Positions 3,148-19,664 of a stretch of DNA of 64,000 bases are shown here, piece after piece. The stretch is taken from assembly GCF_018310535.1 (NCBI RefSeq), contig NZ_CP074102.1, forward strand, positions 4,154,001-4,218,000, in the 5' to 3' direction. The notes below the pieces were generated by a model. The model made no database searches. It worked only from the letters and a program-made list of their open reading frames with translations, and was not told the DNA's origin. Both the position numbers and the translations under genes were made by a program. Source of the DNA: Streptomyces mirabilis (GTDB taxonomy: Bacteria > Actinomycetota > Actinomycetes > Streptomycetales > Streptomycetaceae). Each line of letters opens with the position of its first letter. The first letter of the stretch is position 1.

Positions 3148-3210
3148 GGGTGTCCTCTCCTCGCGCGCCCGGGCGCGCGTCGCATCGGTGGGTGACGTGC
3201 GGTGCCTCAG

Positions 3211-3264
3211 CTGTGCGTGTGCTGTGCGTGCGCTGGTCCGTGCTGTGCCTGTGCTCGTCGGTGA
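3211..3264. repeat. imperfect 11-bp tandem repeats (CTGTGCGTGTG)
   Basis: Units of 10-11 bases resembling CTGTGCGTGYG start at 3211, 3222, 3233, 3243 and 3254 in the gap between the two hydroxylase genes. The array is degenerate and may be a slippage product or a spacer. Confidence 0.6.
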
Positions 3265-3282
3265 CGGGCCGTGCGGTCGTTC

Positions 3283-4896: not shown

Positions 4897-4898
4897 CG

Positions 4899-5834
4899 TC
4901 AACGCCTGTTCTCTGCGAAGGCCTTGGCGTGGGTGAGGGTGGCCCGGCTGTTGGTGGACAGGGCGGTGTGGACGTACTCGCGGGCGTCGGCGACGGTGGC
5001 CCCGCAGCCGAGGATGCTCTCGATGTTGTCCGTGTTGAGGGTGACCGTGTGCTGGGAGGTTGCCGCGACGCCCTGGTCGGTGTCCTGGAAGGTCCAGTGA
5101 CCGGTGTGCAGGGTCATCAGGGCGGGCAGGGTGACCTGCTTGTACGCGATGTGCTGGTGGGGGAAGGTCACCCGGTAGGACTTGGTGGTGTGGACGGATC
5201 CGTCCTTGGCCCGGGTGTCCATCTCCAGGGTCTGGAGCCCCACCGTGTCCTCTTCCAGACGGACCGTGGCGACGTGCGGCAGACGCTCCGACCACAGGTT
5301 CGCCTCGTTGATGAAGGCGAACACGTCCTTGGCGGACCCGTCGACGTGGACGGTGTCCTCGAAGGAGAAGGTCACCTCCTCCGCCGCGTGCGCGAACTCG
5401 ACGTTCTTCTTCAGCGCGGCAAGCTCCGAGCGGCTGTTCTTGTCGACGGCCTGGTCGATCCAGAGGAGGTCGTGCGGGTCGTCGTCGACGGCGCGGTAGT
5501 CGTGCAGCAGCCGTACCCGGGACTCGTTCTCGCCGAGCGGCTCGATGATCCAGGTGCCGCCCATCGCGGCGACCGGCGGAGCGGTCACCTCCTGGCGGAA
5601 GGTGATGCGCAGGGCCTCGGGGTCCAGTTCGCGGCGCGAGGTCCAGTTCTTGGCCTCGCCGTTGGCGGTGGCCCAGATCCGTATCCGCTCCTGAGAGCCC
5701 TCGTGCTCCACTCGGTCCACGTGGATGGTGGGCGGGAAGATCCGGGGCCAGTTGGTGACCTCCGCCAGCAGCCGGTACACGGCCGGTGCGGGCGCGGCGA
5801 TCGTGATCTCGTGCTCTACCTCACGGGTCGTCAT
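4899..5834 (-). CDS. didomain aromatase/cyclase (ActVII/JadD type)
   Basis: Polyketide aromatase/cyclase of 311 residues with two tandem START/Bet v1-like halves (about 1-150 and 155-311), the form that aromatises the first ring of reduced (C9-ketoreduced) decaketides. The first half begins VEHEITIAAPAPAVYRLLAEV and the second VTFSFEDTVHVDGSAKDVFAFI; both contain the W-S/W-P pattern of the family. The ATG at 5832-5834 follows the ketoreductase gene by 50 bases. It acts with KS/CLF/ACP and the KR product. Assignment to the didomain family is firm; regiochemistry (C7-C12) is inferred from family and cluster type. Confidence 0.93.
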   Translation of the reverse strand: MTTREVEHEITIAAPAPAVYRLLAEVTNWPRIFPPTIHVDRVEHEGSQERIRIWATANGEAKNWTSRRELDPEALRITFRQEVTAPPVAAMGGTWIIEPLGENESRVRLLHDYRAVDDDPHDLLWIDQAVDKNSRSELAALKKNVEFAHAAEEVTFSFEDTVHVDGSAKDVFAFINEANLWSERLPHVATVRLEEDTVGLQTLEMDTRAKDGSVHTTKSYRVTFPHQHIAYKQVTLPALMTLHTGHWTFQDTDQGVAATSQHTVTLNTDNIESILGCGATVADAREYVHTALSTNSRATLTHAKAFAENRR

Positions 5835-5884
5835 GACGCTTTCTTCTCCATGGCTGGGTACGGGCTGCCGGTCGGTGGGGGTGC

Positions 5885-6670
5885 TCAGAAGTTGCCGAGT
5901 CCGCCGCAGACGTTGATGGCCTGCGCGGTGACCGAGGCGGCCGTGTCGGAGGCGAGGTAGGCGACCATGCCGGCGACCTCCTCGGGGGTGGAGTAGCGGC
6001 CGAGCGGGATCTTGGCCTGGAACTTCTCGAGGATGGCGTCCTCGGAGGTGTCGTAGGCGGCCGCGTATCCGGCGCGCACCCGCTGGGCCATCGGCGTCTC
6101 GACATAACCGGGGCAGACGGCGTTCACGGTGATGCCGGTGGGGGCCAGCTCATTGCCGAGGGCCTTGGTGAAACCGACCACGCCGTGCTTCGAGGCGGAG
6201 TAGGGGGCACCCAGGACCACGCCCTGCTTGCCGGCCGTGGAGGCGATGTTGATGATGCGGCCACGGCTCTTGTGGCGCATGCCGCCGGTGTTGAGCACCT
6301 CCCGCGTCAGCCGGAACACGCTGTTGAGGTTGGTGTCGATGACATCGGTCCACAGCTCGTCCTCGATGTCGGCGGTGACGCCGCCACCGGACCGGCCGGC
6401 GTTGTTGACCAGGACGTCGACGGTGCCGAAGCGGTCGACCGCGGCCTGCACGAAGGCGCCGACCGAGGCGGGGTCGCGGACGTCGAGGACCGTGCCGTCG
6501 GCGTCGATGCCCTCCTCCTGGAGGATCTTGACGGTCTCGGCGACGTTGTCCGCGCTGCGGGCGCCGATGAACACGCGGTGGCCGGCCGCGGCCAGCGCCC
6601 GCGCGGACGCGAGGCCGATGCCGCTGGTGGCCCCCGATATGAGAGCGACCCGCTTTTCCAGCGTTGACAT
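5885..6670 (-). CDS. polyketide C9 ketoreductase (ActIII type, SDR)
   Basis: NADPH-dependent short-chain dehydrogenase of 261 residues, the same length as ActIII. The cofactor loop SGATSGIG is at 12-19 and NNAG at 89-92; the catalytic residues N114, S144, Y157 and K161 are all present in ActIII numbering. The stereospecificity loop that is PGG (94-96) in ActIII reads SGG here. The enzyme reduces the C-9 carbonyl of the nascent poly-beta-ketone on the ACP, placing the product in the reduced aromatic class (angucycline, anthracycline, benzoisochromane). It sits between ACP and aromatase genes as in jadC-E-D. Confidence 0.95.
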   Translation of the reverse strand: MSTLEKRVALISGATSGIGLASARALAAAGHRVFIGARSADNVAETVKILQEEGIDADGTVLDVRDPASVGAFVQAAVDRFGTVDVLVNNAGRSGGGVTADIEDELWTDVIDTNLNSVFRLTREVLNTGGMRHKSRGRIINIASTAGKQGVVLGAPYSASKHGVVGFTKALGNELAPTGITVNAVCPGYVETPMAQRVRAGYAAAYDTSEDAILEKFQAKIPLGRYSTPEEVAGMVAYLASDTAASVTAQAINVCGGLGNF

Positions 6671-6766
6671 GTGCTTCCTCTCCCTTTGTTCTGCGGGGGT
6701 GCGGCGGAGCCGGACCGGACGAGGTCAGGTGAAAGGTTTCGCCCGGCCCGGGAACGCCGTCGGGCG

Positions 6767-7042
6767 TCAGGCGGCGGCGGGCTCGTCGGCGCCGAACTGC
6801 TGGTTCACGGCCTCGATGAGGGCGCGCGGGGTGTCGGCGTCGGTCAGCAGGTCCTCGTCGAGGACGATCCCGTACTCGCGCTCTATACGGCTGCCGGTCT
6901 CCAGGAGCGCCAGCGACTCGTAGCCGAGGACTTCGAACGGCTCGTCGAGGATGTCGCCGTCGAGGTCGACGCCCTCGTCGACGCCGGCGCCCTCCTGGAG
7001 GATGCGGCGCAGGTCGTCCAGGGTGAATTCCGAAGTGGACAC
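6767..7042 (-). CDS. type II PKS acyl carrier protein
   Basis: Acidic 91-residue ACP starting at GTG 7040-7042, with GGAAGGAA upstream. The phosphopantetheine-accepting serine is S43 in LGYESLALLE; the residue before it is Glu, whereas Asp (DSL) is usual in this family. It carries the growing polyketide chain between the KS/CLF pair and the tailoring enzymes. It lies 74 bases after the CLF stop in the same operon. No phosphopantetheinyl transferase gene is in the window, so activation must come from elsewhere. Confidence 0.95.
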   Translation of the reverse strand: MSTSEFTLDDLRRILQEGAGVDEGVDLDGDILDEPFEVLGYESLALLETGSRIEREYGIVLDEDLLTDADTPRALIEAVNQQFGADEPAAA

Positions 7043-7116
7043 GTGGGTTCCTTCCCAGGTCGAAATGGATCGTTCAGTCGGGGGTCTCGGGGCGTTGGGG
7101 GCAGGGGGAGTGCCGG

Positions 7117-8331
7117 TCAGTCCACGGCGCGGACCACGACGGCCGAGTTGAAGCCGCCGTAACCGCGGGCCAGGACCAGGGCGGTGCGCACCTGGGCGGT
7201 GCGCGACTGGTTGAGGACCAGGTCGAGGCCGTACTCCTCGTCGGGGTTGATGTGCACCGTCGGAGGGATGAGGCCCTCCTCGATGGCCAGCAGCGCGGTG
7301 GCGACGTCGAGCGGGGCCGCTCCGGAGTACAGCCGGCCCGTCATCGTCTTGGGCGCGGTGACCGGGACGCCCCGGACACCGAAGACCGCCGAGATCGCGT
7401 CGGCCTCGATACGGTCCAGCTCCGGCACGCCCGCCGCGTCCGCGAAGACCACGTCGACGTCCTCGGGGGCGGTGTCCGCGTCGGCGAGGGCGAGTTCGAT
7501 CGCCTTGCGCAGGGCGGGCTCGCGGTCGCTGCCGGGCCGCGGGTCGAACGTCGAGCCGTAGCCCGCGATCTCGCCGTAGATCTTGGCGCCGCGCTCGCAC
7601 GCCGACTCGGCCGACTCCATGATCAGGATGGCGCCGCCCTCGCCCGGTACGTAACCGGCCGCGTCGGCGTCGAAGGGCAGATAGGCACGGGTCGGCTCGT
7701 CGCTGGTGCTGAGCCGGTCGCCGGCCATCTGCGCCACCCAGCCCCAGGGACAGATCGACGCGTCGACGCCCCCGGAGACGATCATCGGGGTGCCCTTGCG
7801 GATGAGCCGCCGGCCGTGCGCCACCGCGTCGAGACCGCCGGCCTCGTCGCTGACGATGACGCCGCTGGGACCCTTGAGCCCGTTGCGGATGGAGATCTGG
7901 CCGCTGTTGACGGCGTAGAACCAGGCGAAGGACTGGTACGCGGACACGTACTGGCTGCCCTGGCTCCACAGCTTCTCCAGCTCGCCCTGGCCGAACTCGA
8001 AGCCGCCCGAGGAACTGGCCGTGACGACGCCCATGTCGTACTGGGGCAGTTCCTTGGGGTCGATGCCCGCGTCCGCGAGCGCCCACTCGGCGGCGACCAG
8101 CGCCATCCGCGTCATGTGGTCGGTCTGCGGCAGCAGCCGGCTCGGCAGCACGTCCGCGGCGACGAAGCCGGGCACCTCGCCCGCCAGGGTCGACGGGTAG
8201 GAGGACGGGTCGAAGCGGGTGACCCGCCCGATGCCGTTCTTGCCGGTCCGGGTGGCGGCCCAGTAGTCCTGTGTGCCCAGTCCGTTGGGGGCGGCGATGC
8301 CCAGACCGGTCACTACCACCGTGGTGGTCAT
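7117..8331 (-). CDS. ketosynthase chain-length factor (KS-beta)
   Basis: KS-beta subunit, 404 residues, starting at ATG 8329-8331 and overlapping the KS-alpha stop by 4 bases (ATGA), typical of 1:1 coupled translation. The fold matches KS-alpha, but the active-site Cys is replaced: the segment reads [10 protein letters not shown] with Glu at about residue 163, where most CLFs have Gln. The heterodimer partner sets chain length (a decaketide is expected for angucyclines). Assignment as CLF is firm; chain length is inferred from the cluster type. Confidence 0.95.
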
Positions 8332-9599
8332 GCCACGCTCCTCTCGGGACGCGCCAGCACCATGGCGCTCTGGAAGCCCCCGAAGCCGCTGCCGACCGTG
8401 AGCACCGCGTCGGTGAGCTGCTCGCGGGCGACCAGCGGCACGTAGTCGAGGTCGCACTTGGGGTCGGGGGTGGTGAGGTTGGCCGTGGGCGGCACGACGT
8501 GGTTCTCCATCGCCAGCGCGGACGCGGCGATCTCGATGGAGCCGATCGCGCCGAGCGAGTGCCCGACCATCGACTTGATCGAGCTGACCGGGGTCCGGTA
8601 GGCGTGGTCGCCCAGGCTCCGCTTGAACGCCTCGGTCTCGTGGCGGTCGTTCTGCTTGGTGCCCGAGCCGTGCGCGTTGATGTAGTCGATCTCGGTCGGG
8701 TTCATCCTGGCCTCGTCGAGTGCGACCGTGATGGCCTCGGCCATCTCCGCCCCGTCCGGGCGCAGACCCGTCATGTGGTACGCGTTCGAGCGCGTCGCAT
8801 AGCCCGCGATCTCGGCGTAGATGTGCGCACCGCGCCGCTTGGCGCTCTCCAGCTCCTCCAGGACGAACACGGCGGCACCCTCACCGAGGACGAACCCGTT
8901 GCGGGTCCCGTCGAAGGGGCGCGAAGCGCGCTCGGGTACGTCGTCCCGGGGCGTCGTCGCCTTGATCGCGTCGAAGCACGCCATCGTGATCGGCGAGATC
9001 GGGGCGTCGGACGAACCCGTGATCATGACGTCGGCCGAGCCCTCGCGGAGCAGTTCCACGGCGTGCCCGACCGAGTCGATGCCGGACGTACAGCCCGTGG
9101 AGACCACCGTGTTGGGGCCCTGCGCACCCACGGCCCACGCGACCTCGGCCGCGAAGGAGCTGGGGACCAGGTAGTTGTACAGATGCGGGGCCGTGTAGGC
9201 GTGGTCGACCAGGTGAAGCCGGCCGCCGTCGCTGACGACGTTGTACTCCTCGTCCAGACCCATGGTCGCGCCGACCGCGCTGCCGATGGTGACGCCGACG
9301 CGGTACGGGTCGTAGGCGTCGATGTCGATACCGCTGTCGGCGACCGCGCCGCGGGCCGCGACCACCGCGAACTGCGCGGCGCGGTCCATCCGGCGTATCT
9401 CCTGCGGGCGCAGTCCGTGCTCCGCCGGATCGAAGTCGATCTCGGCGGCGACCCGGGAACGGAACGGGCTGGGGTCGAAGAACGTGATGCGGCGGGTGGC
9501 CGTACGGCCCTCGCTCAGCAGGTTCCAGAAGTTCTTCGCCCCGACACCACCGGGGGCGAGCACCTCGATACCGGTGATGACAACTCGTCGGCCGGTCAC
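8328..9599 (-). CDS. ketosynthase alpha (KS-alpha)
   Basis: Catalytic beta-ketoacyl synthase of the minimal PKS, 423 residues, starting at GTG 9597-9599 and overlapping the cyclase stop by 4 bases. The active-site nucleophile is C170 in [10 protein letters not shown], with H310 (NAHGSGT) and H347 ([10 protein letters not shown]) completing the Cys-His-His triad. It performs the decarboxylative condensations of malonyl units on the ACP together with the CLF. The cyclase-KS-CLF-ACP order with overlapping starts is that of jadI-A-B-C. Confidence 0.96.
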
Positions 9600-9925
9600 G
9601 CGGACGCCTCCCAGTTGTAGAAGCGTGTGGCCATCGCGTCGGCCGGGGAGCGCCAGGTGGCCGGGTCGTACGCCTCGATGAACGGCTTCAGGTCCTCGCT
9701 GATCTGTATGAAGCGGGGGTCGTGCCGGGCGTGCTGGATCAGCTCGCCGCCGTTGTCCGCGTCGAAGTCCTGGAGGTGGAAGTACAGACCCCGGTACTGG
9801 AAGAGCTGGCGCCGGCGCGTGCCCATGCGGTGCGGCATTTCCGTGTCGTCGAAATCACCGAAAACCTTCGCGACGTCGACGCTCGACCCGGGATCCATCC
9901 GAGCCACAATCAGCGTGCTGTACAT
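9596..9925 (-). CDS. TcmI-family polyketide cyclase
   Basis: Small dimeric alpha/beta-barrel cyclase of 109 residues, the usual TcmI/JadI length. Start ATG 9923-9925 has GAGGAGAGGGA upstream; an in-frame extension (MWWAPRRGK) lacks a ribosome site and is rejected. Motifs [12 protein letters not shown] and LYFHLQDF are typical of the family, which directs later ring closures and is needed for the angular fourth ring in angucycline pathways. It is the first gene of the minimal PKS operon. Confidence 0.93.
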
Positions 9926-10090
9926 ACTTTTCCCTCTCCTCGGGGCCCACCACACAACAGTTGACGAAAGCTCATATTCAGTATCTTGGGCGGTACGAGC
10001 GGTTTCAATATTCCCCGTGTCAGGGAATTGTCAGACCGGTTCAGAATTGCGCTGGAGAATGCCGGAAAATGCCAGGCAATGCCAGGGAAT
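9926..10090 (-). promoter_or_regulatory. probable PKS operon promoter region with three 10-bp direct repeats
   Basis: This gap separates the biotin carboxylase stop from the cyclase start. It is AT-richer than its surroundings. Three exactly spaced decamers, GCCGGAAAAT, GCCAGGCAAT and GCCAGGGAAT, occupy 10061-10070, 10071-10080 and 10081-10090. OmpR/PhoB-family regulators are known to bind direct repeats about one helical turn apart, and an OmpR-type regulator gene lies at 14897-15691. That this is its site is inference. Confidence 0.5.
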
Positions 10091-11866
10091 TCAGCTGGTG
10101 ATTTCGCACATGGCGGCGCCCGCGGCGACGGACGCGCCCACTTCGGCGGTGAGGCTCTTCACGATCCCCGAGCGGTGGGCGTTGAGGGGCTGTTCCATCT
10201 TCATGGCCTCCAGGACGACGACGAGGTCGCCCTCCTTGACCTCCTGGCCTTCCTCGACCGCGACCTTGACGATCGTGCCCTGCATGGGCGAGGCGAGCGT
10301 GTCACCGGAGGCGACCGGGCCCGACCTCCTGGCCGCGCGGCGCTTCGGCTTGGCGCCGGCGGCGAGGCCGGTGCGGGCCAGCGACATGCCCAGCGAGGAC
10401 GGCAGCGAGACCTCCAGGCGCTTGCCGCCGACCTCGACGACGACGGACTCGCGGCCCGGCTCGTCCTCCGCATCCGCCGCCTCGGCGGGGTTGGTGAAGG
10501 CCGGGATGCCATTGACGAACTCGGTCTCGATCCAGCGGGTGTGGACCGTGAACGGGTCGGTGGAGCCGGTCAGTTCGGGGGCGAAGGCCGGGTCCTTGAC
10601 GACCGCACGGTGGAAGGGCAGCGCGGTGGCCATCCCGCCGATCTCGAACTCCTCGAGGGCGCGGGCGGCGCGCTGGAGCGCCTGCTCGCGGGTGGCGCCG
10701 GTGACGATCAGCTTGGCGAGCAGGGAGTCCCAGGCCGGGCCGATCACACTGCCGCACTGCACACCCGCGTCCAGGCGGACGCCAGGACCCGACGGCGGGG
10801 CGAACAGCGTCACCGTGCCGGGGGCGGGCAGGAAGTTGCGTCCCGGGTCTTCGCCGTTGATGCGGAACTCGAAGGAGTGGCCGCGCAGGGCGGGGTCGCC
10901 GTAGCCGAGTTCCTCGCCGTCGGCGATGCGGAACATCTCGCGGACGAGGTCGATGCCGGCGACTTCCTCGGTGACGGGGTGTTCGACCTGGAGGCGGGTG
11001 TTGACCTCCAGGAAGGAGATCGTGCCGTCCATGCCGACGAGGAATTCGACGGTGCCGGCGCCGACGTAGCCGGCTTCCTTGAGGATCGCCTTGGAGGAGG
11101 AGTACAGCTCCGCCACCTGGGCGTCCGACAGGAACGGCGCCGGGGCCTCTTCCACCAGCTTCTGGTGGCGGCGCTGCAGCGAGCAGTCGCGGGTGGAGAC
11201 GACGACGACGTTGCCGTGGGTGTCGGCCAGGCACTGGGTCTCGACGTGGCGGGGCTTGTCGAGGTAGCGCTCGACGAAGCACTCGCCGCGGCCGAAGGCG
11301 GCCACTGCCTCGCGGACGGCGGAGTCGTAGAGCTCGGGGACTTCTTCGAGGGTGCGGGCGACCTTCAGGCCGCGTCCGCCGCCGCCGAAGGCGGCCTTGA
11401 TCGCGATCGGCAGTCCGTGCTCTTCGGCGAAGGCGACGACTTCGTCGGCGCCGCTCACCGGGTCGGGGGTGCCCGCGACGAGAGGGGCGCCGGCACGCTG
11501 GGCGATGTGGCGGGCGGAGACCTTGTCGCCGAGGTCGCGGATGGCCTGCGGGGGCGGGCCGATCCAGGTCAGGCCGGCGTCCAGGACCGCCTGGGCGAAC
11601 TCGGCGTTCTCCGACAGGAAGCCGTAGCCCGGGTGGATGGCGTCCGCGCCGGAGTCCTTGGCGGCCTGGAGGACCTTGGCGATGTCCAGGTAGCTGGTGG
11701 CGGGGGTGTCACCGCCCAAAGCGAACGCCTCGTCCGCCGCCCGGACATGCGACGCGTCCCTGTCTGGTTCCGCATACACGGCAACGCTCGCGATCCCGGC
11801 ATCCCGGCACGCCCGGGCCACGCGGACAGCGATTTCGCCACGGTTGGCGATGAGCACCTTGCGCAC
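10091..11866 (-). CDS. acetyl/propionyl-CoA carboxylase alpha subunit: biotin carboxylase plus BCCP (AccA2/JadJ-like)
   Basis: Two-function subunit of 591 residues from GTG 11864-11866 (GGAGG 6 bases upstream). It shows a biotin carboxylase N-domain ([12 protein letters not shown]), an ATP-grasp domain with glycine loop [11 protein letters not shown], the [16 protein letters not shown] motif, and a C-terminal biotinyl domain with EAMKM; the biotinylated Lys is near residue 555. It makes malonyl-CoA together with a separate carboxyltransferase that is not in the window. A copy inside the PKS locus, directly upstream of the cyclase gene, matches jadJ of the jadomycin cluster, which supplies extender units. 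A primary-metabolism copy probably exists elsewhere. Confidence 0.93.
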
Positions 11867-12021
11867 GATGAACCTCCCCAGACTCCGCTCGGAGCCACAA
11901 GACTGTTCGAGTGCGCACTTCCCCTTCAATACGGTCCGTTGCAGAACTGGGTCAGAATCAGCAGACCCGGGGCAGCATTTACCGGAAGAGGAAAGAAGAA
12001 GGTCAGGCCTCCGTCAAATTG

Positions 12022-12053
12022 CCGGACCCGGCGGACGGATCCGCCGGGTCCGG
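12022..12053 (-). terminator. perfect 14-bp hairpin, probable terminator of the epimerase transcript
   Basis: The arms CCGGACCCGGCGGA (12022-12035) and its exact complement (12040-12053) flank a 4-base loop. It lies downstream of the minus-strand epimerase gene and upstream of the carboxylase start. There is no strong T-run, as is common in Streptomyces. Confidence 0.65.
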
Positions 12054-12094
12054 AAAGAAAAGGAATGCGCCATTCCGGGGAAAATTTCGAGGGC

Positions 12095-12175
12095 CGTTCA
12101 GGAGGCGTTCCGGGGTGGCGTTCGGGAGACGCTCAGGAGGCGTTCAGGAGGCGTTCAGGGGCTGCGTTCGGGAGG
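12095..12175. repeat. seven 11-bp direct repeats (CGTTCAGGAGG), candidate activator site
   Basis: Units begin at 12095, 12106, 12119, 12130, 12141, 12152 and 12165; five are 11 bases long and two carry 2 extra bases. Consensus CGTTCRGGAGG. The array lies about 230-310 bases upstream of the carboxylase (jadJ-like) start. An 11-bp phase places all units on one DNA face, as in SARP and OmpR-type activator sites. Confidence 0.75.
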
Positions 12176-12266
12176 CACTTCCCGCCGCCCCACAGGGTTT
12201 CGCGGGCCGGTCGACCACTTGGCGGGTCGACCACTTGGCCGGTCGAGCTCGCGGGCCCGTACTCGG

Positions 12267-13244
12267 TCAACCGTCCCGCAGGGCCTTGCGGTACCAGGGC
12301 GCCGCGAGGGGGAAATCGGTGTCGAAGCCGGCGCCGGGTGCGCGACGCAGGTCGGACCAGAGCGGGGTGCTGTCGAAGACGTGGTCGGTGGTGAACATGT
12401 CGAGCCCGGACGGAGGCACGCCCTTCTCGGCCAGGACCGCCCGGGCTCGGTCGGCGGTCAGTTCCCGGTCCGGCCAGTCGGTCCCCGTGCAGTCGGCGAC
12501 CGCGCGCAGGAGGGTGCCCACGGGGAGGGGCTCCGGGTGGGTGGCGTGGTAGACGGAGGCGGTCAGGTCGGCGGCGGGAGCGAGCGCGGTGGCCACCAGC
12601 AGCGCGGCCAGTTCGGGTGCGGCGATCACGGAGGTCCGGGCGGGCCAGCCCTCCACCGTGCCGGGCAGCACGCGCAGCATCCGGGTCAGGCCGGGCACCA
12701 CCCACCTGTCGCCCTCCCCGTACACCAGGTGCGGGCGCAGGACGACACCGCCGGCCGCGAGGACGGTGTCCTCGGCCGTGGCCCGGGTGAGGGACGTGGG
12801 CGAGCCCGGGTTACGGGACAGTTCTTCGGGCCGGTCGCCACGGAAGGTGCCACGGCCGTAGACGGACGCGGTGCTCAGCTGGACGATGCGCACGACCCCC
12901 GCGCGGCGCGCTTCCTCGATGAGCGCCGCCGTGCCACGGGCGTTGACGGCCTCGTTGGCCTCGACGCCGCCGCCGATCTGCGAGGCGCAGTGGATCAGGA
13001 CGTCGACTCCGTCGCACACCCCGTGCAAGGACGCGGGGTCGGTCAGATCGGCCCGTACGACGCGAGCACCGTCATGGGCCGCAGGACCCTCCTGGATGGG
13101 GGAGCCCTTGTGGAGCGGGGGACCGGAGCCGAGCAGGGGACTGCGATGGGACATGAGCCTCAAGTCGGCCCGGTACCGGGCCGCTTCACGGGCGACGTGT
13201 CCGCCGACGAAGCCGGCGGCGCCGGTGATCAGGATGGTGGGCAC
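12267..13244 (-). CDS. NAD-dependent epimerase/dehydratase-like protein
   Basis: Extended SDR-like protein of 325 residues from GTG 13242-13244 (GAGGAG upstream). The nucleotide-binding motif LITGAAGFVGGH is intact near residue 5, and the STASVYGRG strand follows. The usual catalytic YxxxK is not seen: the aligned stretch reads SPTSLTRATAEDT, so Tyr and Lys seem replaced by Thr and Arg. It is next to afsA on the same strand, the arrangement seen where an SDR acts in gamma-butyrolactone synthesis (JadW2-like), but a tailoring or non-catalytic role is equally possible. Confidence 0.75.
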   Translation of the reverse strand: MPTILITGAAGFVGGHVAREAARYRADLRLMSHRSPLLGSGPPLHKGSPIQEGPAAHDGARVVRADLTDPASLHGVCDGVDVLIHCASQIGGGVEANEAVNARGTAALIEEARRAGVVRIVQLSTASVYGRGTFRGDRPEELSRNPGSPTSLTRATAEDTVLAAGGVVLRPHLVYGEGDRWVVPGLTRMLRVLPGTVEGWPARTSVIAAPELAALLVATALAPAADLTASVYHATHPEPLPVGTLLRAVADCTGTDWPDRELTADRARAVLAEKGVPPSGLDMFTTDHVFDSTPLWSDLRRAPGAGFDTDFPLAAPWYRKALRDG

Positions 13245-13300: not shown

Positions 13301-14422
13301 TCAACGGCCGCGCGGGCTCAGGACGAGCTCGGCGGTGAAGACGGTCTCAGCGTGCTGCGTACCGCGCACCCGCACCAGTACGCCGCCCTCCGTACCGTGC
13401 GGTTCGGCCTGCGGCTCGATCCAGCAGGGCGCGTCGAACTCGGCGTAGCGCGCGAAGTTGCTCTTGAGGCCGACCAGGAGGGCGTCCGGCATCCCGGTCG
13501 AGACGAGGGCGGCCTGCCGGGCGGCTTCCAGCAGGACCATGCCCGGTATGTGATCGACGGGGTGGTCGAAGAAGGTGGGGTGGGCGGTGTCGACGCGCAG
13601 TTCCCAGCGGTCGCCGGTACCGGAGGCCCATCCGGGCTCGGGCTTGAGTTCGGACTCAGGCCTGGACTTGGGCTCGGCGAGCAGCACGTGCCGGTCGTCG
13701 GAGTGTCCCACCGCGGCCGGGTCGATCGCGGGCGGCACGACGCGGTCGGTGGTGGTGGGCCGGCCGGCGCGCAGCCTGCGGTGGACGGCGGGACTGGTGC
13801 AGCTGAACGCGGCGCCCGCGGTGGCCAGCGCCCTTCCGTCGCGCAGCACGGTGACGTCGTAGCGCATACCGCCGAGCACCCGGCCCCTGCGGACGATGTC
13901 GCGGCAGACGGTGCGCAGTTCGACTTCCGTGGGGACGGCGTCCGCGACGAGGAGTTCGGGGGAGGTGCTGAAGAACATGTCCCACATCAGGAACTGGTGC
14001 CCGAAGGGGACGCCGAACTCGGCGTGCGCGAGCAGGGAACCGATCTGGCGGACGGACTCGATCAGGAGCATCGGGTCCTGGTAGCCGCCGGACTGGGTGA
14101 AGAAGGAGTGGCTGCGCGGCCATTGGGCACTGACCGCGAACTCGTCCGGCCGGTCGGGTCCGGCTGGTTCGGCGGCGGCTTCCCAGCCGGTCAGCAGGAC
14201 CTCCGAGACGGCGGCGCGATGGACGTACTCGCGCGGAACCGTCGTGGTCAGCCGCGGCGTCAGAGTTCGCGCGGCGGTCTGGACGGAGGCTTTGGCAGAG
14301 GCCTGGGCAGAGGCCTGAACGGCGGGTTTAACAGCGTTTCGAGCAGCGGTTCGTGAGGCGCTGGTGCCCACCGTCGCGACGTCGTCTTCGACGGACACAC
14401 GGGTGGAGGTGGTGTACGACAT
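13301..14422 (-). CDS. AfsA-family gamma-butyrolactone synthase (JadW1-like)
   Basis: AfsA-type enzyme, 373 residues from ATG 14420-14422 (AGGAG 8 bases upstream), condensing a beta-ketoacyl chain with dihydroxyacetone phosphate to begin butenolide/gamma-butyrolactone autoregulator synthesis. Two hot-dog-like AfsA repeats are visible: about 75-215 (PRSHSFF...DPMLLIESVRQIG) and 255-360 (HPTFFDHPVDHIPGMVLLEAARQAA). The N-terminus carries an unusual low-complexity Ala/Ser stretch (about residues 25-50, QASAQASAKASVQTA) not needed by the family. It is transcribed away from an ARE-like operator at 14512-14540. Confidence 0.9.
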   Translation of the reverse strand: MSYTTSTRVSVEDDVATVGTSASRTAARNAVKPAVQASAQASAKASVQTAARTLTPRLTTTVPREYVHRAAVSEVLLTGWEAAAEPAGPDRPDEFAVSAQWPRSHSFFTQSGGYQDPMLLIESVRQIGSLLAHAEFGVPFGHQFLMWDMFFSTSPELLVADAVPTEVELRTVCRDIVRRGRVLGGMRYDVTVLRDGRALATAGAAFSCTSPAVHRRLRAGRPTTTDRVVPPAIDPAAVGHSDDRHVLLAEPKSRPESELKPEPGWASGTGDRWELRVDTAHPTFFDHPVDHIPGMVLLEAARQAALVSTGMPDALLVGLKSNFARYAEFDAPCWIEPQAEPHGTEGGVLVRVRGTQHAETVFTAELVLSPRGR

Positions 14423-14511: not shown

Positions 14512-14540
14512 AAGATACAGACATGTCTGTTCGGTTTTTC
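14512..14540. promoter_or_regulatory. ARE-like operator 1 (afsA promoter)
   Basis: The perfect palindrome ACAGACATGTCTGT at 14517-14530 is flanked by AAGAT on the left and TCGGTTTTTC on the right, matching the general form of gamma-butyrolactone autoregulatory elements. It lies about 90-120 bases upstream of the afsA start. Confidence 0.7.
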
Positions 14541-14803
14541 AAGTAAAGCTTTAGCATCCTTCGAGCGATGAGCCGCCCCTACAGGCCGATACAGCACGAT
14601 TGCGCCACCCGGGACGCCTGATCTTTCAAACCGTGCAGACCTGCATGGTTAGCGCCAGAGACACACGCCGGACAAGAGGCTCCACCCCGACCGCAACCTG
14701 CCGGAAACATGACCTTGAAGCTCCGGATCTCTCTACATATACGCAGGTCAACGTGGGTAGATTGGAAAAGGCACGGACCGACGCGCGGGGGATTTCGAAC
14801 ACG

Positions 14804-14827
14804 TTGACAATCAGACAAGTCTGTTTG
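14804..14827 (+). promoter_or_regulatory. ARE-like operator 2 overlapping a promoter of the response-regulator gene
   Basis: TTGACA (14804-14809) is a good -35 hexamer. The imperfect palindrome CAGACAAGTCTGTT lies in the -35/-10 spacer, with a weak -10 (TATCGT) near 14829. The whole 24-base block is repeated without a mismatch at 18146-18169. A TetR-type receptor bound here would block polymerase. Confidence 0.75.
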
Positions 14828-14896
14828 CTATCGTCCTCATTGTGAGAGTTCAGCAGTCCGTTCCGTGATGACGAGACTGTGCCTCAGGAGGAGCAG

Positions 14897-15691
14897 ATGA
14901 ATCGGCAAGCCGTGGATCTACTCGACGCCCGATCGCAGCGCAATCTTCCGCACCGCCCCACGATTCCCCAGCCCGGGCGGGCCGTTGCCCCACAGACGGC
15001 CACCGACCACCCCGGCCCCCCGGCCGGAGCACTGCGCGTCCTGGTCGTAGAAAACGATGTCAGGGCCGCCGACTCCCTCGTCCAGGGCCTGCTGCGGCAG
15101 GGGTACGCCGCACAGAGCGTGGCCACCGGCACCAAGGCGCTCCAGGCGCACCGCGATGCCGATCTCCTACTGCTCGACCTGGACCTGCCCGACCTGGACG
15201 GGCTCGAGGTGTGCCGGGGCATCCGGGCGGTCTGCGACACCCCGGTCATCGCCGTCACCGCGCGCGGCTCAGAGCTCGACCGGGTGCTCGGACTACAGGC
15301 CGGCTCGGACGACTACCTGGTCAAGCCGTACGGCTTCCGCGAGTTACTGGCCCGGATGGAGGCGGTGATGCGCCGGGTGCGTCAACAGCCCGCCGCCGCC
15401 CAGGTCATCACCCACGGGCCGCTGCGCATCGACGTCGGCACCCGGGTGGCCACGCTGAACGGGAAGCCGGTGGACCTGACCCGCAAGGAGTTCGACCTGC
15501 TGCATCTGCTGGCCTCGCAGCCCGGCACCGTCATGCCGCGACGCCAGCTCATGGCGCAGGTCTGGGACGACACCTGGTCCCACCGCGGGCGCACCATCGA
15601 CACCCACGTCAGCAGCCTGCGCGGCAAGCTCGGTTCGAGCAGTTGGATCATCACCGTACGCGGTGTCGGTTTTCGGCTCGGCCACCCCTGA
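14897..15691 (+). CDS. atypical OmpR-family response regulator (JadR1-like)
   Basis: Pathway-specific regulator of 264 residues from ATG 14897 (CAGGAGGAGCAG upstream). About 45 leader residues precede a receiver domain (47-160) and a winged-helix domain (about 165-262, RKEFDLLHLLASQPG...VRGVGFRLG). The phospho-acceptor D94 (LLLLDLDLPDLDG), T121 and K143 are kept, but the acidic Mg-binding pair reads E52-N53 (VVEND) rather than E/D-D, as in atypical regulators of antibiotic clusters. Codon 150 is TTA, so translation should depend on bldA tRNA-Leu. No cognate kinase is adjacent. By analogy with JadR1 it should activate the carboxylase/PKS operon. Confidence 0.9.
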   Translation: MNRQAVDLLDARSQRNLPHRPTIPQPGRAVAPQTATDHPGPPAGALRVLVVENDVRAADSLVQGLLRQGYAAQSVATGTKALQAHRDADLLLLDLDLPDLDGLEVCRGIRAVCDTPVIAVTARGSELDRVLGLQAGSDDYLVKPYGFRELLARMEAVMRRVRQQPAAAQVITHGPLRIDVGTRVATLNGKPVDLTRKEFDLLHLLASQPGTVMPRRQLMAQVWDDTWSHRGRTIDTHVSSLRGKLGSSSWIITVRGVGFRLGHP

Positions 15692-15711
15692 GCGGCACCC
15701 GCAGGCCGTAC

Positions 15712-15810
15712 GAGGACCACGCGAGGACCGCTCGACGACCCCATGAGGGCCACTTGATGACCGCTTGACGACCGCTTGAGAAGCACTCGAGGAGTGGCCG
15801 AGGACCGACC
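15712..15810. repeat. nine 11-bp tandem repeats (consensus GAGGACCGCTT)
   Basis: Nine consecutive 11-base units start at 15712, 15723, 15734, 15745, 15756, 15767, 15778, 15789 and 15800 without gaps; the best pair are GATGACCGCTT and GACGACCGCTT. The array fills the gap between the response-regulator stop and the TetR promoter. The 11-bp phase is the same as in the array at 12095-12175, but the sequence differs. Confidence 0.8.
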
Positions 15811-15870
15811 GAAAATCGAGCCAAACCGGAAGCAAATACTCCCGCCTACTGGCGGCGTGCCGCCTTGCCG

Positions 15871-15896
15871 ATACAATACAGACCAGTCGGTAAAAT
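15871..15896 (+). promoter_or_regulatory. ARE-like operator 3 (TetR promoter)
   Basis: ATACAGACCAGTCGGTAAAA at 15876-15895 has arms TACAGAC and GTCGGTA that match in 6 of 7 positions. It lies 30-50 bases upstream of the TetR ATG at 15924, a position typical of autoregulation. It shares the CAGAC half-site with operators 1, 2 and 4. Confidence 0.6.
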
Positions 15897-15923
15897 TCCA
15901 GTGGGCGAGAGCAAGGACCTGGT

Positions 15924-16544
15924 ATGGCCACACAAGAGCGCGGGACGAGGTCGAGGCACTCGATCCTGGAGTCCGCGGCCCGCGTGTTCGACGAGCGCGG
16001 CTACGACGCGGCGAGCACCAACGACATCCTGGCCCGGACGGGCCTCACTCGAGGCGCGCTGTACCACCACTTCCCTTCCAAGGAAGCGATCGCCGTGGCC
16101 CTCGTGACCGCGCACAGCGAGGCGCTGGTGGTGCCGGACCAGGCGGTGAAGCTCCAGGCGGTCATCGACCTCACCCTGGAGTTCGCCCAGCGTCTCCAGC
16201 GCGATCCGGTGCTACGGGCCAGTGTACGGCTCGCCGTCGAGCAGACGTCGTTCTCGCGGCCGCCGCAGACGGCGTACGAGCAGTCCGGCGCCGCCATACT
16301 CGCCCTGCTGCGGCAGGCCGAGGAGCAGGGCGAGATCCTGCCCGGCGTGGACATCCAGGAAGCCACGTCGACCATCGTCGGCGCCTTCACCGGCCTGCAG
16401 TTGATGTCCCAGGTCTACAGCAACCGCGAGGATCTGCCGGAACGCATCGGTGCCTTCTGGCGCTTCGTGCTGCCCGGTCTGGCCACGCCCGGCATGCTCG
16501 GCCGCCTCCGCACCGTCCCGCCGCCGGCCCACGAGCCCGCCTGA
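15924..16544 (+). CDS. TetR-family gamma-butyrolactone receptor or pseudo-receptor (ScbR/JadR type)
   Basis: DNA-binding repressor of 206 residues from ATG 15924. The N-terminal helix-turn-helix (about 8-55) reads RHSILESAARVFDERGYDAA followed by TNDILARTGLTRGALYHHF, the pattern of ArpA/ScbR-type butyrolactone receptors. The ligand domain contains VRLAVEQTSFSRPP, also typical. It probably represses through the ARE-like sites at its own promoter and at the afsA, response-regulator and kinase-like promoters until autoregulator binds. Two such genes are present; which one is the true receptor and which a pseudo-receptor (JadR2-like) cannot be told by eye. Confidence 0.85.
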   Translation: MATQERGTRSRHSILESAARVFDERGYDAASTNDILARTGLTRGALYHHFPSKEAIAVALVTAHSEALVVPDQAVKLQAVIDLTLEFAQRLQRDPVLRASVRLAVEQTSFSRPPQTAYEQSGAAILALLRQAEEQGEILPGVDIQEATSTIVGAFTGLQLMSQVYSNREDLPERIGAFWRFVLPGLATPGMLGRLRTVPPPAHEPA

Positions 16545-17314
16545 CCACCGTCCGGCCCGCCCGGCCGCACCCCTGAACCCGACAACCTCACAACCAAGCC
16601 CGCACCCCGCGCCCCCGCACCGCCCGCCGAACAGAACACGGCACCCCGAACGCGAGCTCCGGGCAGGTCCGCCTCACCCGTGAGGGACCCCAGCCCGACA
16701 CCTCACCCCGGGCCAAGCCCCCCACCAGGGGTGTTTTTCGCGTGCCGTCCCGTTCACGGGCACGCCCCGCGACGGACCTGCGAAGGCCGAGGGCCTGTCC
16801 CGACCCCGGCCCCCGGACAACACCCGCTCCGGACCAACCCCGTCACCGCAGGCGCCCTCTCGCGCCGCCCCGAACACGGGCCCCCGCAACCGACCTCCGA
16901 CCACCGAGGACCCCACCCGCACCCGGGCCCCGACACGTCACCGAGTTCGGGCCTCGTTCCCCCGCGCGCAGCCCAGCCGGGCTCCAGCCGCCTTCCAACT
17001 CCGGGACGGGGCCGATGTCCCCCGGGCTCTGGGCCGCGTACCCAAGCCCATGACCACGAACTCGCCCGGGGTTCGCGACTCCCCACCGCTGCCTCACCCA
17101 GGTCGAGAGACGGCCCCTGCCCCTGGCCCGGCCAAGTTGCGCTCGCCGAACCTCGGGTCAACTCCGCCCGGAACGTGGGAGCTTGAGGAAGGCCCAGAGG
17201 CCCGCGCTCACCCCCGCACGGACCTCGAGCCCCGTCCCCGTCGAGCGACGCAGGCGAGCCCCTCTCCGGCCGAACTCCCCACACCCCGCCCCCGCTTCAA
17301 GACGTCAGGCCCCC
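16545..17314. other. 770-base C-rich non-coding gap between convergent TetR genes
   Basis: No recognisable gene. The plus strand is strongly skewed to C over G (for example 16560-16740 and 17270-17400), so every frame gives low-complexity Pro/Arg-rich or Gly/Arg-rich translations. The two flanking TetR genes converge, so no promoter is required. No clear terminator hairpin was found. Confidence 0.6.
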
Positions 17315-17920
17315 TCAAACCCCCTCGGACCCGCTGCCCACCCGCTGTTCCTCCTCCGCCCGCCCCTCCCCGGCCAACGAGAACAACGGACGCAACAACA
17401 CCCACAACCGCTTGGACGTCTTGGGGTCCCACCACTCCGCGTCCGTGTGCCCGAGCGACTCCAGCCCCGCGGCCACCACCACCGCCAGATCGGCCAGATC
17501 CTCCGGCGCCGGCACCACGTCCCGGTGCGCGTCGACCACCCGCCTGCGCACCAACGCCAGTACGTCGTCACGCAACCGCGGGGGCCCCGCCGACCCGTCC
17601 ACCGCCAGCTGTATGCCGGCCCGGACCAGTTCCTCCGTACGCAACGCCTCGCACAGGGCGACCAGGAGGCGCTCCGGGGCATCCTCCACGGGCCCCTCGA
17701 AGGCCTCGTCCATCAGCGCGACAACCCGCTCGTGCGCCTGCTCGTACACCGCGGCCGTCAACTCCGCGGTGGAGGAGAAGTGGTGATAGAGAGCCCCCCG
17801 GCTCACCCCGGCCCGGCGGCAGATGTTGACCAGTCCCGCATCGGAGAGCCGGCCGTTCGCTATCAGTTCCGCCGCGGCACGGACGAGAGCCTGACGGGTC
17901 TGTTCGGACCGGGTCTGCAT
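17315..17920 (-). CDS. second TetR-family regulator, gamma-butyrolactone receptor-like
   Basis: 201-residue regulator starting at ATG 17918-17920; longer in-frame starts upstream run through an operator and are rejected. The helix-turn-helix reads SDAGLVNICRRAGVSRGALYHHF, close to the other receptor, and GIQLAVDGSAGPPR corresponds to the VRLAVEQ region of the ligand domain. It is followed by a C-terminal SLAGEGRAEEEQR tail. It is transcribed from a region with an ARE-like palindrome (about 17996-18020) and convergently to the other TetR gene. Likely partner of JadR2/JadR3-type control. Confidence 0.85.
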   Translation of the reverse strand: MQTRSEQTRQALVRAAAELIANGRLSDAGLVNICRRAGVSRGALYHHFSSTAELTAAVYEQAHERVVALMDEAFEGPVEDAPERLLVALCEALRTEELVRAGIQLAVDGSAGPPRLRDDVLALVRRRVVDAHRDVVPAPEDLADLAVVVAAGLESLGHTDAEWWDPKTSKRLWVLLRPLFSLAGEGRAEEEQRVGSGSEGV

Positions 17921-17997
17921 CAGGCTGCACCTGCCTATTCCTGCTCTTGGCATGAAGGAGCGCGCGGGCGCCCTGAGGGCGCCGGCAACAACCGGAA

Positions 17998-18020
17998 TCA
18001 TACAACCATGCATGTTTTAG
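17998..18020 (-). promoter_or_regulatory. ARE-like operator 4 (second TetR promoter)
   Basis: ATACAACCATGCATGTTTTA (from 18000), centred on the palindrome CATGCATG, resembles butyrolactone autoregulatory elements (ATACNAACC...GGTTTTT form). It lies 80-100 bases upstream of the TetR start at 17920. Confidence 0.6.
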
Positions 18021-18145
18021 TCGACAGCCCTGTGAACCCAGACCTCCATCCAATCCCCATAAATCCTGCAGCTCTTGCCCATGTACGGCCTCTTGACGGC
18101 CGGACGATCCCGTGAGCACACCCCATCCGGAACCCCCTCTCACTC

Positions 18146-18169
18146 TTGACAATCAGACAAGTCTGTTTG
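18146..18169 (+). promoter_or_regulatory. ARE-like operator 5 overlapping promoter of the kinase-like gene
   Basis: Exact 24-base copy of the block at 14804-14827: TTGACA (18146-18151), then CAGACAAGTCTGTT in the spacer and a weak TTACGT -10 at about 18171. The identity over the whole block, but not beyond, argues for a selected operator-promoter. Confidence 0.8.
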
Positions 18170-18232
18170 TTACGTTGGCGATGGCCACGTTGCCCCCGGC
18201 ACCCAAGCGTCACCCGAGCGTTGAGGAGTCCG

Positions 18233-19420
18233 ATGAGCAGCACGACCGCCCCCACCGCGCCCACCTCCACGACCGCACCGACCGGCCCGATCCCCCCTGT
18301 CACCGCGGCCATCCCCCTGGTCGGCAATGGATTCGGCGAAGCCCTGCACGAGGGCCTGGTCCGTGCGGCGGCCCGGATGTCGCCCCGCCCGGGCCACTCC
18401 CCCTTGATGTCGTCCGCCACCACCCTGGGATCCTGGGAGACCGGCGCCGTCCTGGACCGCTTCACCGCCCGCCTCCCCACCGCACTCGCCCCCGCCGAGG
18501 CGGAAGTGCCCACCCTGCGCACCACGCTGACGGAGTTCGCCCGCACCGCCCTGGCGCGTGCCGCGGACACCATCCCCGCCCCCGCGCCCATCGCCCCGCC
18601 CGCCGCCTCCCCGCACCAGGTGGCCGCCGCGGTCGCCCTGCTCCTCGAGTGCGCCCTGCTGCACGTCCTGGAGAACGGCATCGCGCACCACGAGAGCGCG
18701 CTGCCCCGCGCGGTCGCGGTCGTCCGGCGCCTCGGCGAGGTCGTCCGGGAGGCCGGGGAGGGCATGTGGTCCGGCGACGACGGCCGCGGCGAGCGCCGCC
18801 GGCTGGCCCGGCAGCTGCACGACGAGCTGGGCGGCGCCCTGTCCCTGGCCCGACTCAGCCTCGACGCCGCGGCGACCTGCGCCCCCGGCAGGACCGGCTC
18901 ACCCACCGCTGGCGCTCCCGGCACCGTCGCCGCCCACCTCGCCACCGCCCAAAGGGCACTGTCCGCGGCGGCCAGGGAGAACCAGGCGCTCATCGACGGT
19001 GTGCGCCACCGCGCCGACCTGCCGCCCCTGCGCGAGGCCCTGGAGGCCTTCCTCGCGGGCCCACGTCCCCGCGACGGCCGCGGTATCCAGACCTCCGTCG
19101 AGGTCATCGGCGACGAGTGGACCCTCTCCGAGCGGCACCGGGAGGAGACATTCCTCGCCCTGCGCGAGGCCCTGCGCGACCGCCTGGCCCGCTCGGGCGC
19201 GCGCCGCGTGGACACCGTCGTACGCATCACCAGGCGCTGGCTGTACGCGAAGGTGACCGACGACGGCCACGGCCCCGTGGGAGGTTCCGCCGATTCCGCG
19301 CGGGCCCTGCGCTCCCTCACCGACCGCGTCGAGGACCTCGGCGGCCGGACCGGCATCACCCCGGGCACCCCCACCGGCACCCTGCTGGAGATCCATCTGC
19401 CCCTGCGCGGACACCCCTGA
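18233..19420 (+). CDS. soluble NarL-type histidine-kinase-like protein
   Basis: 395-residue protein from ATG 18233 (TTGAGGAGTCCG upstream). No membrane segment is evident. A HisKA_3-like dimerisation helix carries RRRLARQLHDELGGALS, with H196 as the expected phosphorylation site. The ATPase region keeps a G1-like DDGHG at 343-347, but the N-box, usually EALTNALRHA, reads EALRDRLARSGARR, so the Asn is missing and kinase activity is doubtful. The N-terminus (1-30) is Ala/Thr/Pro-rich. The gene is controlled from the same operator block as the OmpR-type regulator, which suggests a shared regulatory circuit. Confidence 0.75.
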   Translation: MSSTTAPTAPTSTTAPTGPIPPVTAAIPLVGNGFGEALHEGLVRAAARMSPRPGHSPLMSSATTLGSWETGAVLDRFTARLPTALAPAEAEVPTLRTTLTEFARTALARAADTIPAPAPIAPPAASPHQVAAAVALLLECALLHVLENGIAHHESALPRAVAVVRRLGEVVREAGEGMWSGDDGRGERRRLARQLHDELGGALSLARLSLDAAATCAPGRTGSPTAGAPGTVAAHLATAQRALSAAARENQALIDGVRHRADLPPLREALEAFLAGPRPRDGRGIQTSVEVIGDEWTLSERHREETFLALREALRDRLARSGARRVDTVVRITRRWLYAKVTDDGHGPVGGSADSARALRSLTDRVEDLGGRTGITPGTPTGTLLEIHLPLRGHP

Positions 19421-19577: not shown

Positions 19578-19664
19578 TGGTGCGCGAGGGGGGAGTTGAA
19601 CCCCCACGCCCTTGCGGGCACTGGAACCTGAATCCAGCGCGTCTGCCTATTCCGCCACCCGCGC
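19578..19664 (-). tRNA. tRNA-Leu (CAG)
   Basis: An 87-base class II tRNA with encoded CCA. The acceptor GCGCGGG pairs with CUCGCGC. The anticodon stem CTGGA/TCCAG encloses TTCAGGT (anticodon CAG), a long variable arm follows, and the T-loop reads GGTTCAACTCC. Its 3' end faces the polyketide locus, the side on which tRNA-targeted elements insert. Confidence 0.95.

Follow-up and report, generated by a model that had tools for sequence, protein, structure and literature searches.

A compact set of related operators before five signalling genes of Streptomyces mirabilis and its probable reading by a gamma-butyrolactone-type receptor

Why should two genes of one signalling locus, encoding a response regulator (RR) and a histidine-kinase-like protein (HK), start behind the same block of 24 bases? 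The question arises in a 64-kb window of the 9.6-Mb genome of Streptomyces mirabilis, the window being the whole stretch of DNA analysed, where both genes lie with an afsA-like gamma-butyrolactone (GBL) synthase gene and two genes for TetR proteins, tetR1 and tetR2, beside a polyketide cluster judged from its gene content to be of the angucycline type. The sequence argues, at a probability that we put at roughly 0.8, for a compact regulon of the GBL type, in which operators of the autoregulatory element (ARE) kind would be read by the ScbR-like TetR1, probably together with TetR2, and in which RR likely activates the cluster. Among the listed matches in open-licence PMC papers, no title or abstract on this locus was found.

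The block, TTGACAATCAGACAAGTCTGTTTG, occurs on the plus strand in two exact copies, at 14804-14827 before RR and at 18146-18169 before HK, as an earlier note on this DNA had reported. Further copies at up to three mismatches were found neither in the window (0 in 100 shuffles) nor in the strain's own genome (0 for a reversed-pattern control). The first six bases of each copy are TTGACA (14804-14809 and 18146-18151), the −35 box that the note had seen embedded there, and they lead into a near-palindromic operator, CAATCAGACAAGTCTGTTTG (14808-14827 and 18150-18169). TANNNT, the Streptomyces −10 element, follows on the same strand after a 19-bp spacer, as TATCGT at 14829-14834 for RR and as TACGTT at 18171-18176 for HK. 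Flanking sequence is dissimilar between the two copies (14/60 and 18/60 identical bases), which are therefore not the remains of a longer duplication, and a local duplication is ruled out as their source. Chance was ruled out by the shuffles and by the pooled matrix described below, and a genome-wide repeat by the two copies being the sole ones in the genome and by the presence of the block in just 13 of 392 Streptomyces genomes. Two identical copies in one locus are also what a repeat with no part in regulation, whether duplicated or mobile, would leave behind; such a repeat is already contradicted by the unrelated flanks, by the same promoter positions being occupied across species and by the lack of any other genomic copy, and is hardly credible.

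Inverted repeats of the same kind precede afsA (GATACAGACATGTCTGTTCG, 14514-14533, a perfect ACAGACATGTCTGT), tetR1 (AATACAGACCAGTCGGTAAA, 15875-15894) and tetR2 (CATACAACCATGCATGTTTT, 17999-18018), no strand being assigned to these three. The core ACAGACNNGTCTGT was found five times in the window at two mismatches against 2.45 expected. Five was reached in 8 of 100 shuffles, so that the count is not significant alone and tells against the set. A strict core pattern occurred at nine distinct places in the own genome (three for the reversed control), four in the locus and five elsewhere; the latter lie within mechanically called open reading frames of >120 codons, which is weak coding evidence in GC-rich DNA. 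As the core alone was not significant, matrices were built solely from orthologous loci of other species. The orthologous set comprised 17 loci, namely the window, 11 loci from the genus and five named loci (L033-L036 and L041) that were the orthologous members of a second collection of 80, S. diastatochromogenes ATCC 12309 (RR 99%) among them. Several are close relatives, and since some form close pairs the 17 do not amount to 17 independent lineages.

A pooled matrix from 14 of these loci, excluding the window and its near copies L030 and L033, was run over the 64 kb with 20 shuffled windows as controls, in which base content alone was preserved. The five sites came out as the top five (29.7, 29.7, 28.8, 19.3 and 17.8), the next site in the window scoring 9.4 and the best of the shuffles 15.9. 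Matrices from single genes were weaker. The TetR1-only matrix scored the afsA, TetR1, HK and RR sites at 22.4-26.0 (shuffle maximum 15.2; TetR2 site 9.6), the TetR2-only matrix the TetR2, afsA, HK and RR sites at 17.2-25.4 (shuffle maximum 14.2; TetR1 site 8.0) and the RR-only matrix the RR, HK and afsA sites at 22.1-35.9 (shuffle maximum 18.1; TetR2 site 7.8, TetR1 site 3.8). A matrix combining afsA, RR and TetR1 sites raised four sites to 20.4-30.9 against a shuffle maximum of 17.5, the TetR2 site reaching only 6.7. The earlier claim of five related sites before these genes is thus backed by the cross-species matrix, and by conservation: 17/17 loci have the afsA, RR, TetR1 and TetR2 sites, and all seven loci where HK was found have the HK site, with 0-2 mismatches.

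All five operators overlap core promoters. Those of RR and HK are identical and lie between −35 and −10; across the set the RR promoter carries TTGACA in 16/17 loci and TANNNT at the 19-bp spacer in 17/17, and the HK promoter TTGACA in 6/7 HK-bearing loci and TANNNT at that spacer in 7/7. On the reverse strand afsA has a −35 box TTGAAA (14537-14542) and, at a spacer of 19, a −10 element TATCTT (14512-14517) that overlaps the operator, an arrangement kept across loci with a −35 box starting in TTG in 16/17, a 19-bp spacer and an operator-overlapping TANNNT in 16/17. At tetR1 the TANNNT at 15872-15877 overlaps the left end of the operator (TANNNT in 16/17 loci), and at tetR2 the operator overlaps the −10 element TATGAT and has TANNNT at its 3' end in 17/17. 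The operators therefore sit where RNA polymerase should bind. A promoter scan of the window gave its sole match at tetR2; the RR and HK promoters were not listed because spacers were limited to 16-18 bp and theirs measure 19.

The RR 24-mer is exact in 15/17 loci, L023 and L041 each differing by two bases, and over 15 loci, with two near copies excluded, mean pairwise identity was 0.98 within the block and 0.30 over the preceding 40 bases. Downstream it was 0.75 at +1 to +8, which hold the −10 element, and 0.27 at +9 to +40. HK itself was found in just 7/17 loci (the L033 copy is cut by a contig end), the others giving no tblastn match above 60 bits within the roughly 4.5-9.5 kb of flank fetched on the HK side. 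An HK-type site was also seen in three loci without an HK match, with two mismatches in L036 and four in L023 and L029. Both L029 (at 7348) and L036 (at 8387) have retained this operator and lost the −10 element. A sixth, weaker operator-like site, CGTGCAGACCTGCATGGTTA at 14632-14651 (no strand assigned), is the best leave-one-out match in the gap between afsA and RR and was absent from the list in the earlier note. Its p value is 0.03 in the window and at most 0.05 in 10/17 loci; it precedes the RR site by 133-160 bp in 13/17 and was not found at this usual position in L023, L028, L035 and L041.

Which protein reads the sites? TetR1 (15924-16544, plus strand) is a receptor-like repressor of the ScbR/ArpA type that exceeds the ScbR family cut-off of NCBIfam (NF041196, 196.6 bits against 150) and matches AvaR1 at E 1.5e-40; no strong paralog was found in the own genome (self 437 bits, next 51.9). 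Its structure model (pLDDT, the predicted local distance difference score, 81.5; 12 sequences) has AvaR1 as top fold match, with a template-modelling score of 0.70-0.78 by query length, followed by TylP; the best 34 PDB chains comprise AvaR1, TylP, two bacterial-hormone-receptor entries and the ArpA-like CprB, with other TetR folds after these. AvaR1 of S. avermitilis is hence the closest solved relative both by sequence and by predicted fold. TetR2 (17315-17920, minus strand) is a divergent ScbR-related protein whose best NCBIfam model is again NF041196, at 95.4 bits and so below the cut-off.

The 392 genomes were scanned for the 24-mer at up to three mismatches, the reversed-pattern control being 0 in every row. 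The block is not common outside the locus, where wide occurrence would have refuted the operator network proposed in the earlier note. Out of the 13 genomes that carry it, own one included, 12 are exactly the 12/392 with TetR2 at E <= 1e-35, so that it occurs in 12/12 TetR2-bearing genomes and in 1/380 without TetR2. This co-occurrence, together with the afsA, HK and RR sites ranking next after its own site, above shuffles, in the TetR2-only matrix, would fit TetR2 as the main reader of the 24-mers, with TetR1 controlling only its own gene and afsA. We consider that unlikely. TetR1 occupies the same loci, and its matrix ranks the afsA, HK and RR sites equally well. The thirteenth genome (G175, locus L026), in which the 24-mer has three mismatches beside a related RR, has no TetR2 match yet combines a hybrid operator with a TetR1-like protein. 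Three further loci, L039, L042 and L046, likewise have no TetR2 match, and in them a TetR1-type receptor accompanies an unchanged promoter layout.

These last loci belong to a second lineage with a different operator. Of 76 non-orthologous RR loci, 75 come from the second collection and one is L026. Among the 30 whose upstream sequence was read, 12 had the canonical pattern TTGACAAAC-N(7-11)-GGTTT, 12/12 with TANNNT at an 18-bp spacer; the pattern had no match in the other 18. A related kinase-like gene (34-36% identity) is present in L039, L042 and L046, its promoter carrying TTGACAAACAGG...CCGGTTTG and TANNNT at 19 bp. On both strands of 943,400 bases the pattern matched 15 times, and the 12 RR and three HK promoters account for every match. 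The layout of an operator set into the RR and HK promoters is therefore common to two lineages, with half-sites that differ. Operator type is associated with the recognition helix of the receptor. TetR1 has the helix TRG(A/S)(L/M)YHHF in 17/17 loci with the variant operator, and a KGALYFHF receptor was found in 8/12 canonical loci (L039, L042, L044, L046, L051, L054, L057 and L069). L037 encodes two TetR proteins, one with GALHFHF and one with an unread helix, and L061 yielded no TetR1 relative. L026 is a single intermediate case, with a hybrid operator at 3405-3428 (canonical left half, variant right half), a receptor at 2183-2797 with the intermediate helix TRGALYFHF and no pocket Trp, and angucycline-type genes beside it. 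One variant locus, L024, has an extra TKGALYFHF protein at 12864.

The ligand pocket has changed as well. TetR1 retains the counterparts of AvaR1 Phe161, Thr162 and Gln165. A hand mapping on the sequence alignment places TetR1 Arg43 where AvaR1 has the recognition-helix residue Lys43, which contacts DNA (PMC7347384; this and the following papers are cited from excerpts). AvaR1 Trp127, described as almost universal in the part of that paper seen here, aligns with TetR1 Tyr118, or possibly with Ser121 under another gap placement. Such a Trp is carried by both SfbR and SfbR2 (PMC7480387, excerpt) and by 19/20 related receptor-like stretches, the exception being L026.

Several observations weigh against reading the five sites as one GBL-type set under TetR1. 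The published ARE consensus AAACVGNNBVNNCSGTTT, which is nowhere matched exactly in the own genome (2 for the reversed control), is missed at three positions by the RR, HK and TetR1 sites, at five by the afsA site and at six by the TetR2 site (seven by the sixth site); what agrees with AREs is the geometry, a dyad of about 18-20 bp overlapping the promoter core of GBL-cluster genes. An afsA-only matrix scored afsA at 28.7, RR and HK at 19.2 and TetR1 at 16.1, and one shuffle reached 21.1. Neither the TetR1-only nor the TetR2-only matrix raises the site of the other above the shuffles, and the two TetR proteins might accordingly divide the sites between them. The TetR2 site is on this account a divergent member; its treatment as a separate operator class was dropped, as the matrices better fit one family. 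Only a GALHFHF TetR protein was found in the canonical loci L040 and L048, a second TetR protein with that or a similar helix is present in L039, L042, L046, L054 and L057, and the change of operator and helix may have been a single event. Finally, TetR1 has His at AvaR1 Gln64 (Gln in L025), and no Trp occurs in residues 91-150 in any of its 17 orthologs, so that a standard GBL may not be the ligand of TetR1.

On the preferred reading, a TetR1 dimer, probably along with TetR2, would bind the 20-bp inverted repeats over the core promoters and block RNA polymerase, keeping afsA, RR, tetR1, tetR2 and HK repressed. As an AfsA-dependent signal accumulates, the repressor would leave; afsA would then feed forward, and RR and HK, by virtue of their identical operators and −35 boxes, would be induced in step. 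We infer binding, repression and release by the signal from sequence and homology. Activation of the adjacent angucycline-type cluster by RR is likely, after the example of JadR1 and Aur1P.

The regulon is of a known kind. Above all others, the auricin system (SagA/SagR-Aur1R-Aur1P) of S. lavendulae CCM 3239 matches the locus in layout, gene set and operator position: the GBL receptor SagR and the TetR pseudo-receptor Aur1R bind the promoter of Aur1P, and this atypical response regulator in turn switches on an angucycline-like cluster (PMC8910723, excerpt). The locus differs in half-sites, recognition helix and pocket residues, whose changes were read by comparison with the canonical type rather than with the aur1 sequences, and in a kinase-like gene that shares the RR operator. 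Jadomycin control in S. venezuelae by JadR1, JadR2 and JadR3 likewise joins an OmpR-type atypical regulator to TetR proteins of the GBL-receptor type at an angucycline cluster (PMC8910723 and PMC3261101, excerpts), and a JadR3 mini-network is named in a reference title in PMC8306873; a kinase-like gene under the same operator again sets the present locus apart. The sites of SfbR and SfbR2 in S. filipinensis are 18-bp dyads in the same frame that overlap a −10 or −35 element and precede receptor, pseudo-receptor, synthase and regulator genes, as here, according to the excerpted PMC7480387; the five sites of the window differ in missing the consensus. The ARE of aco lies between CTTGAAG and TATCTT, much like the afsA operator (PMC7347384, in part), while TetR1 differs from AvaR1 in the replaced Gln64, the missing Trp127 and the Arg43. 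New to this kind of regulon are the switched operator, the accompanying receptor changes and the co-controlled kinase-like gene.

These precedents also suggest competition between TetR1 and TetR2 for shared sites, TetR1 acting first as signal receptor and TetR2 later as a metabolite-sensing repressor. The footprints of SfbR and SfbR2 fall on the same sites (PMC7480387, excerpt), SagR and Aur1R both bind aur1Pp (PMC8910723, excerpt), one pooled matrix finds all five sites and related loci commonly encode a second TetR protein. Since TetR2 is far from ScbR and below the cut-off, and the site before its gene diverges most among the five, we give such competition somewhat less than an even chance.

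RR (14897-15691, plus strand) is an OmpR-type regulator (Pfam Response_reg and Trans_reg_C) with an atypical receiver. Its phosphoacceptor Asp94 and Lys143 are invariant in 12 aligned sequences, and the second acidic-pocket residue, Asn53, which is aligned with an Asp of RegX3, is Asn, Ser or Thr in all 12, window included. The JadR1 homologue SimReg1 reportedly keeps three of six pocket residues (PMC3261101, excerpt), and RR lacks one by alignment. An OmpR-type protein with an incomplete phosphorylation pocket in an angucycline-type cluster has two marks of the JadR1/Aur1P type; no JadR1-type name occurred among 120 listed matches of 5884. HK (18233-19420, plus strand) is a soluble protein with a HisKA_3 domain (PF07730), for which no PDB relative was found by sequence. 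In a 64-sequence alignment its His196 is kept in 61/64 relatives, and the N-box Asn is Asp in 41/64, window included, and kept in 20/64. The cousin kinase-like genes have Asp in L042 and Asn in L039 and L046. In L021 the phosphoacceptor histidine of HK (6760-7917) is replaced by Ser.

Paired operators in two lineages, the invariant Asp94 and Lys143 and the well-kept His196 are what a co-induced classical phosphorelay pair would show. We hold such a pair to be improbable, given the pocket residue missing from RR in 12/12, the N-box change in 41/64 HK relatives and the lack of an HK in the fetched flanks of 10/17 loci. HisKA_3 kinases, moreover, usually partner NarL-type regulators. As far as sequence goes, a classical two-component pair is doubtful because RR looks atypical and the ATP site of HK degenerate. 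The earlier proposal that a receptor would control regulator and kinase together therefore stands at the level of the promoters, and the two proteins are unlikely to work as a normal kinase and regulator. HK is probably an accessory of RR, because the operator type is common to both in two lineages; that it was found in only 7/17 loci, and is often degenerate, is set against that role.

Taken further, the regulon could be a private channel. Helix and operator would have been retargeted together, at the promoters of the regulon, from the canonical CAAACNG...CNGTTTG to CAATCAGAC..GTCTGTTTG, and a remodelled pocket would answer another butanolide-like signal free of cross-talk; HK, induced along with RR but dead as a kinase, would control RR by binding and not by phosphorylation. 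This is tentative, and we think it rather less probable than its absence. If the GBL-type reading is true, canonical and switched alphabets of receptor and operator exist in otherwise alike promoters, and the DNA choice of GBL receptors and their insulation become directly testable. An atypical RR and a kinase-like gene under one operator type in two lineages may point to a functional link beyond phosphorylation alone, and the operators would identify the repressors to remove for waking the angucycline-type cluster.

The afsA-like gene (13301-14422, minus strand) matches the ScbA/BarX equivalog NF041195 at 333 bits against a cut-off of 200, and is the only gene of the own genome with an AfsA match (two domains, E <= 0.001). 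Just downstream lies an NAD-dependent epimerase/reductase gene (12267-13244, minus strand; PF01370), a candidate GBL-pathway gene. The gap between them is about 57 bases and the afsA operator could therefore also affect the epimerase, perhaps genes further on. A relative of the epimerase adjoins afsA in 15/17 loci, window counted; it lies beyond HK in L027, and none was found in L041. The angucycline-type type II polyketide genes extend over 1672-13244 on the minus strand, downstream of afsA, and include two ketosynthase-type genes (ketosynthase and chain-length factor by order), a phosphopantetheine-site protein, two cyclase families, a ketoreductase, two ring hydroxylases, a biotin carboxylase and the epimerase. 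Across species the signalling module is found in differing gene surroundings (L025 at 196-2744, L027 and other orthologous loci), and these, with the epimerase on the other side in L027, suggest that it may be portable between clusters. Directly after HK lies a tRNA-Leu (cag) gene at 19578-19664, a possible insertion point of the cluster, and beyond it follow genes with FhaA, PP2C, FtsW, transpeptidase and PASTA-kinase domains.

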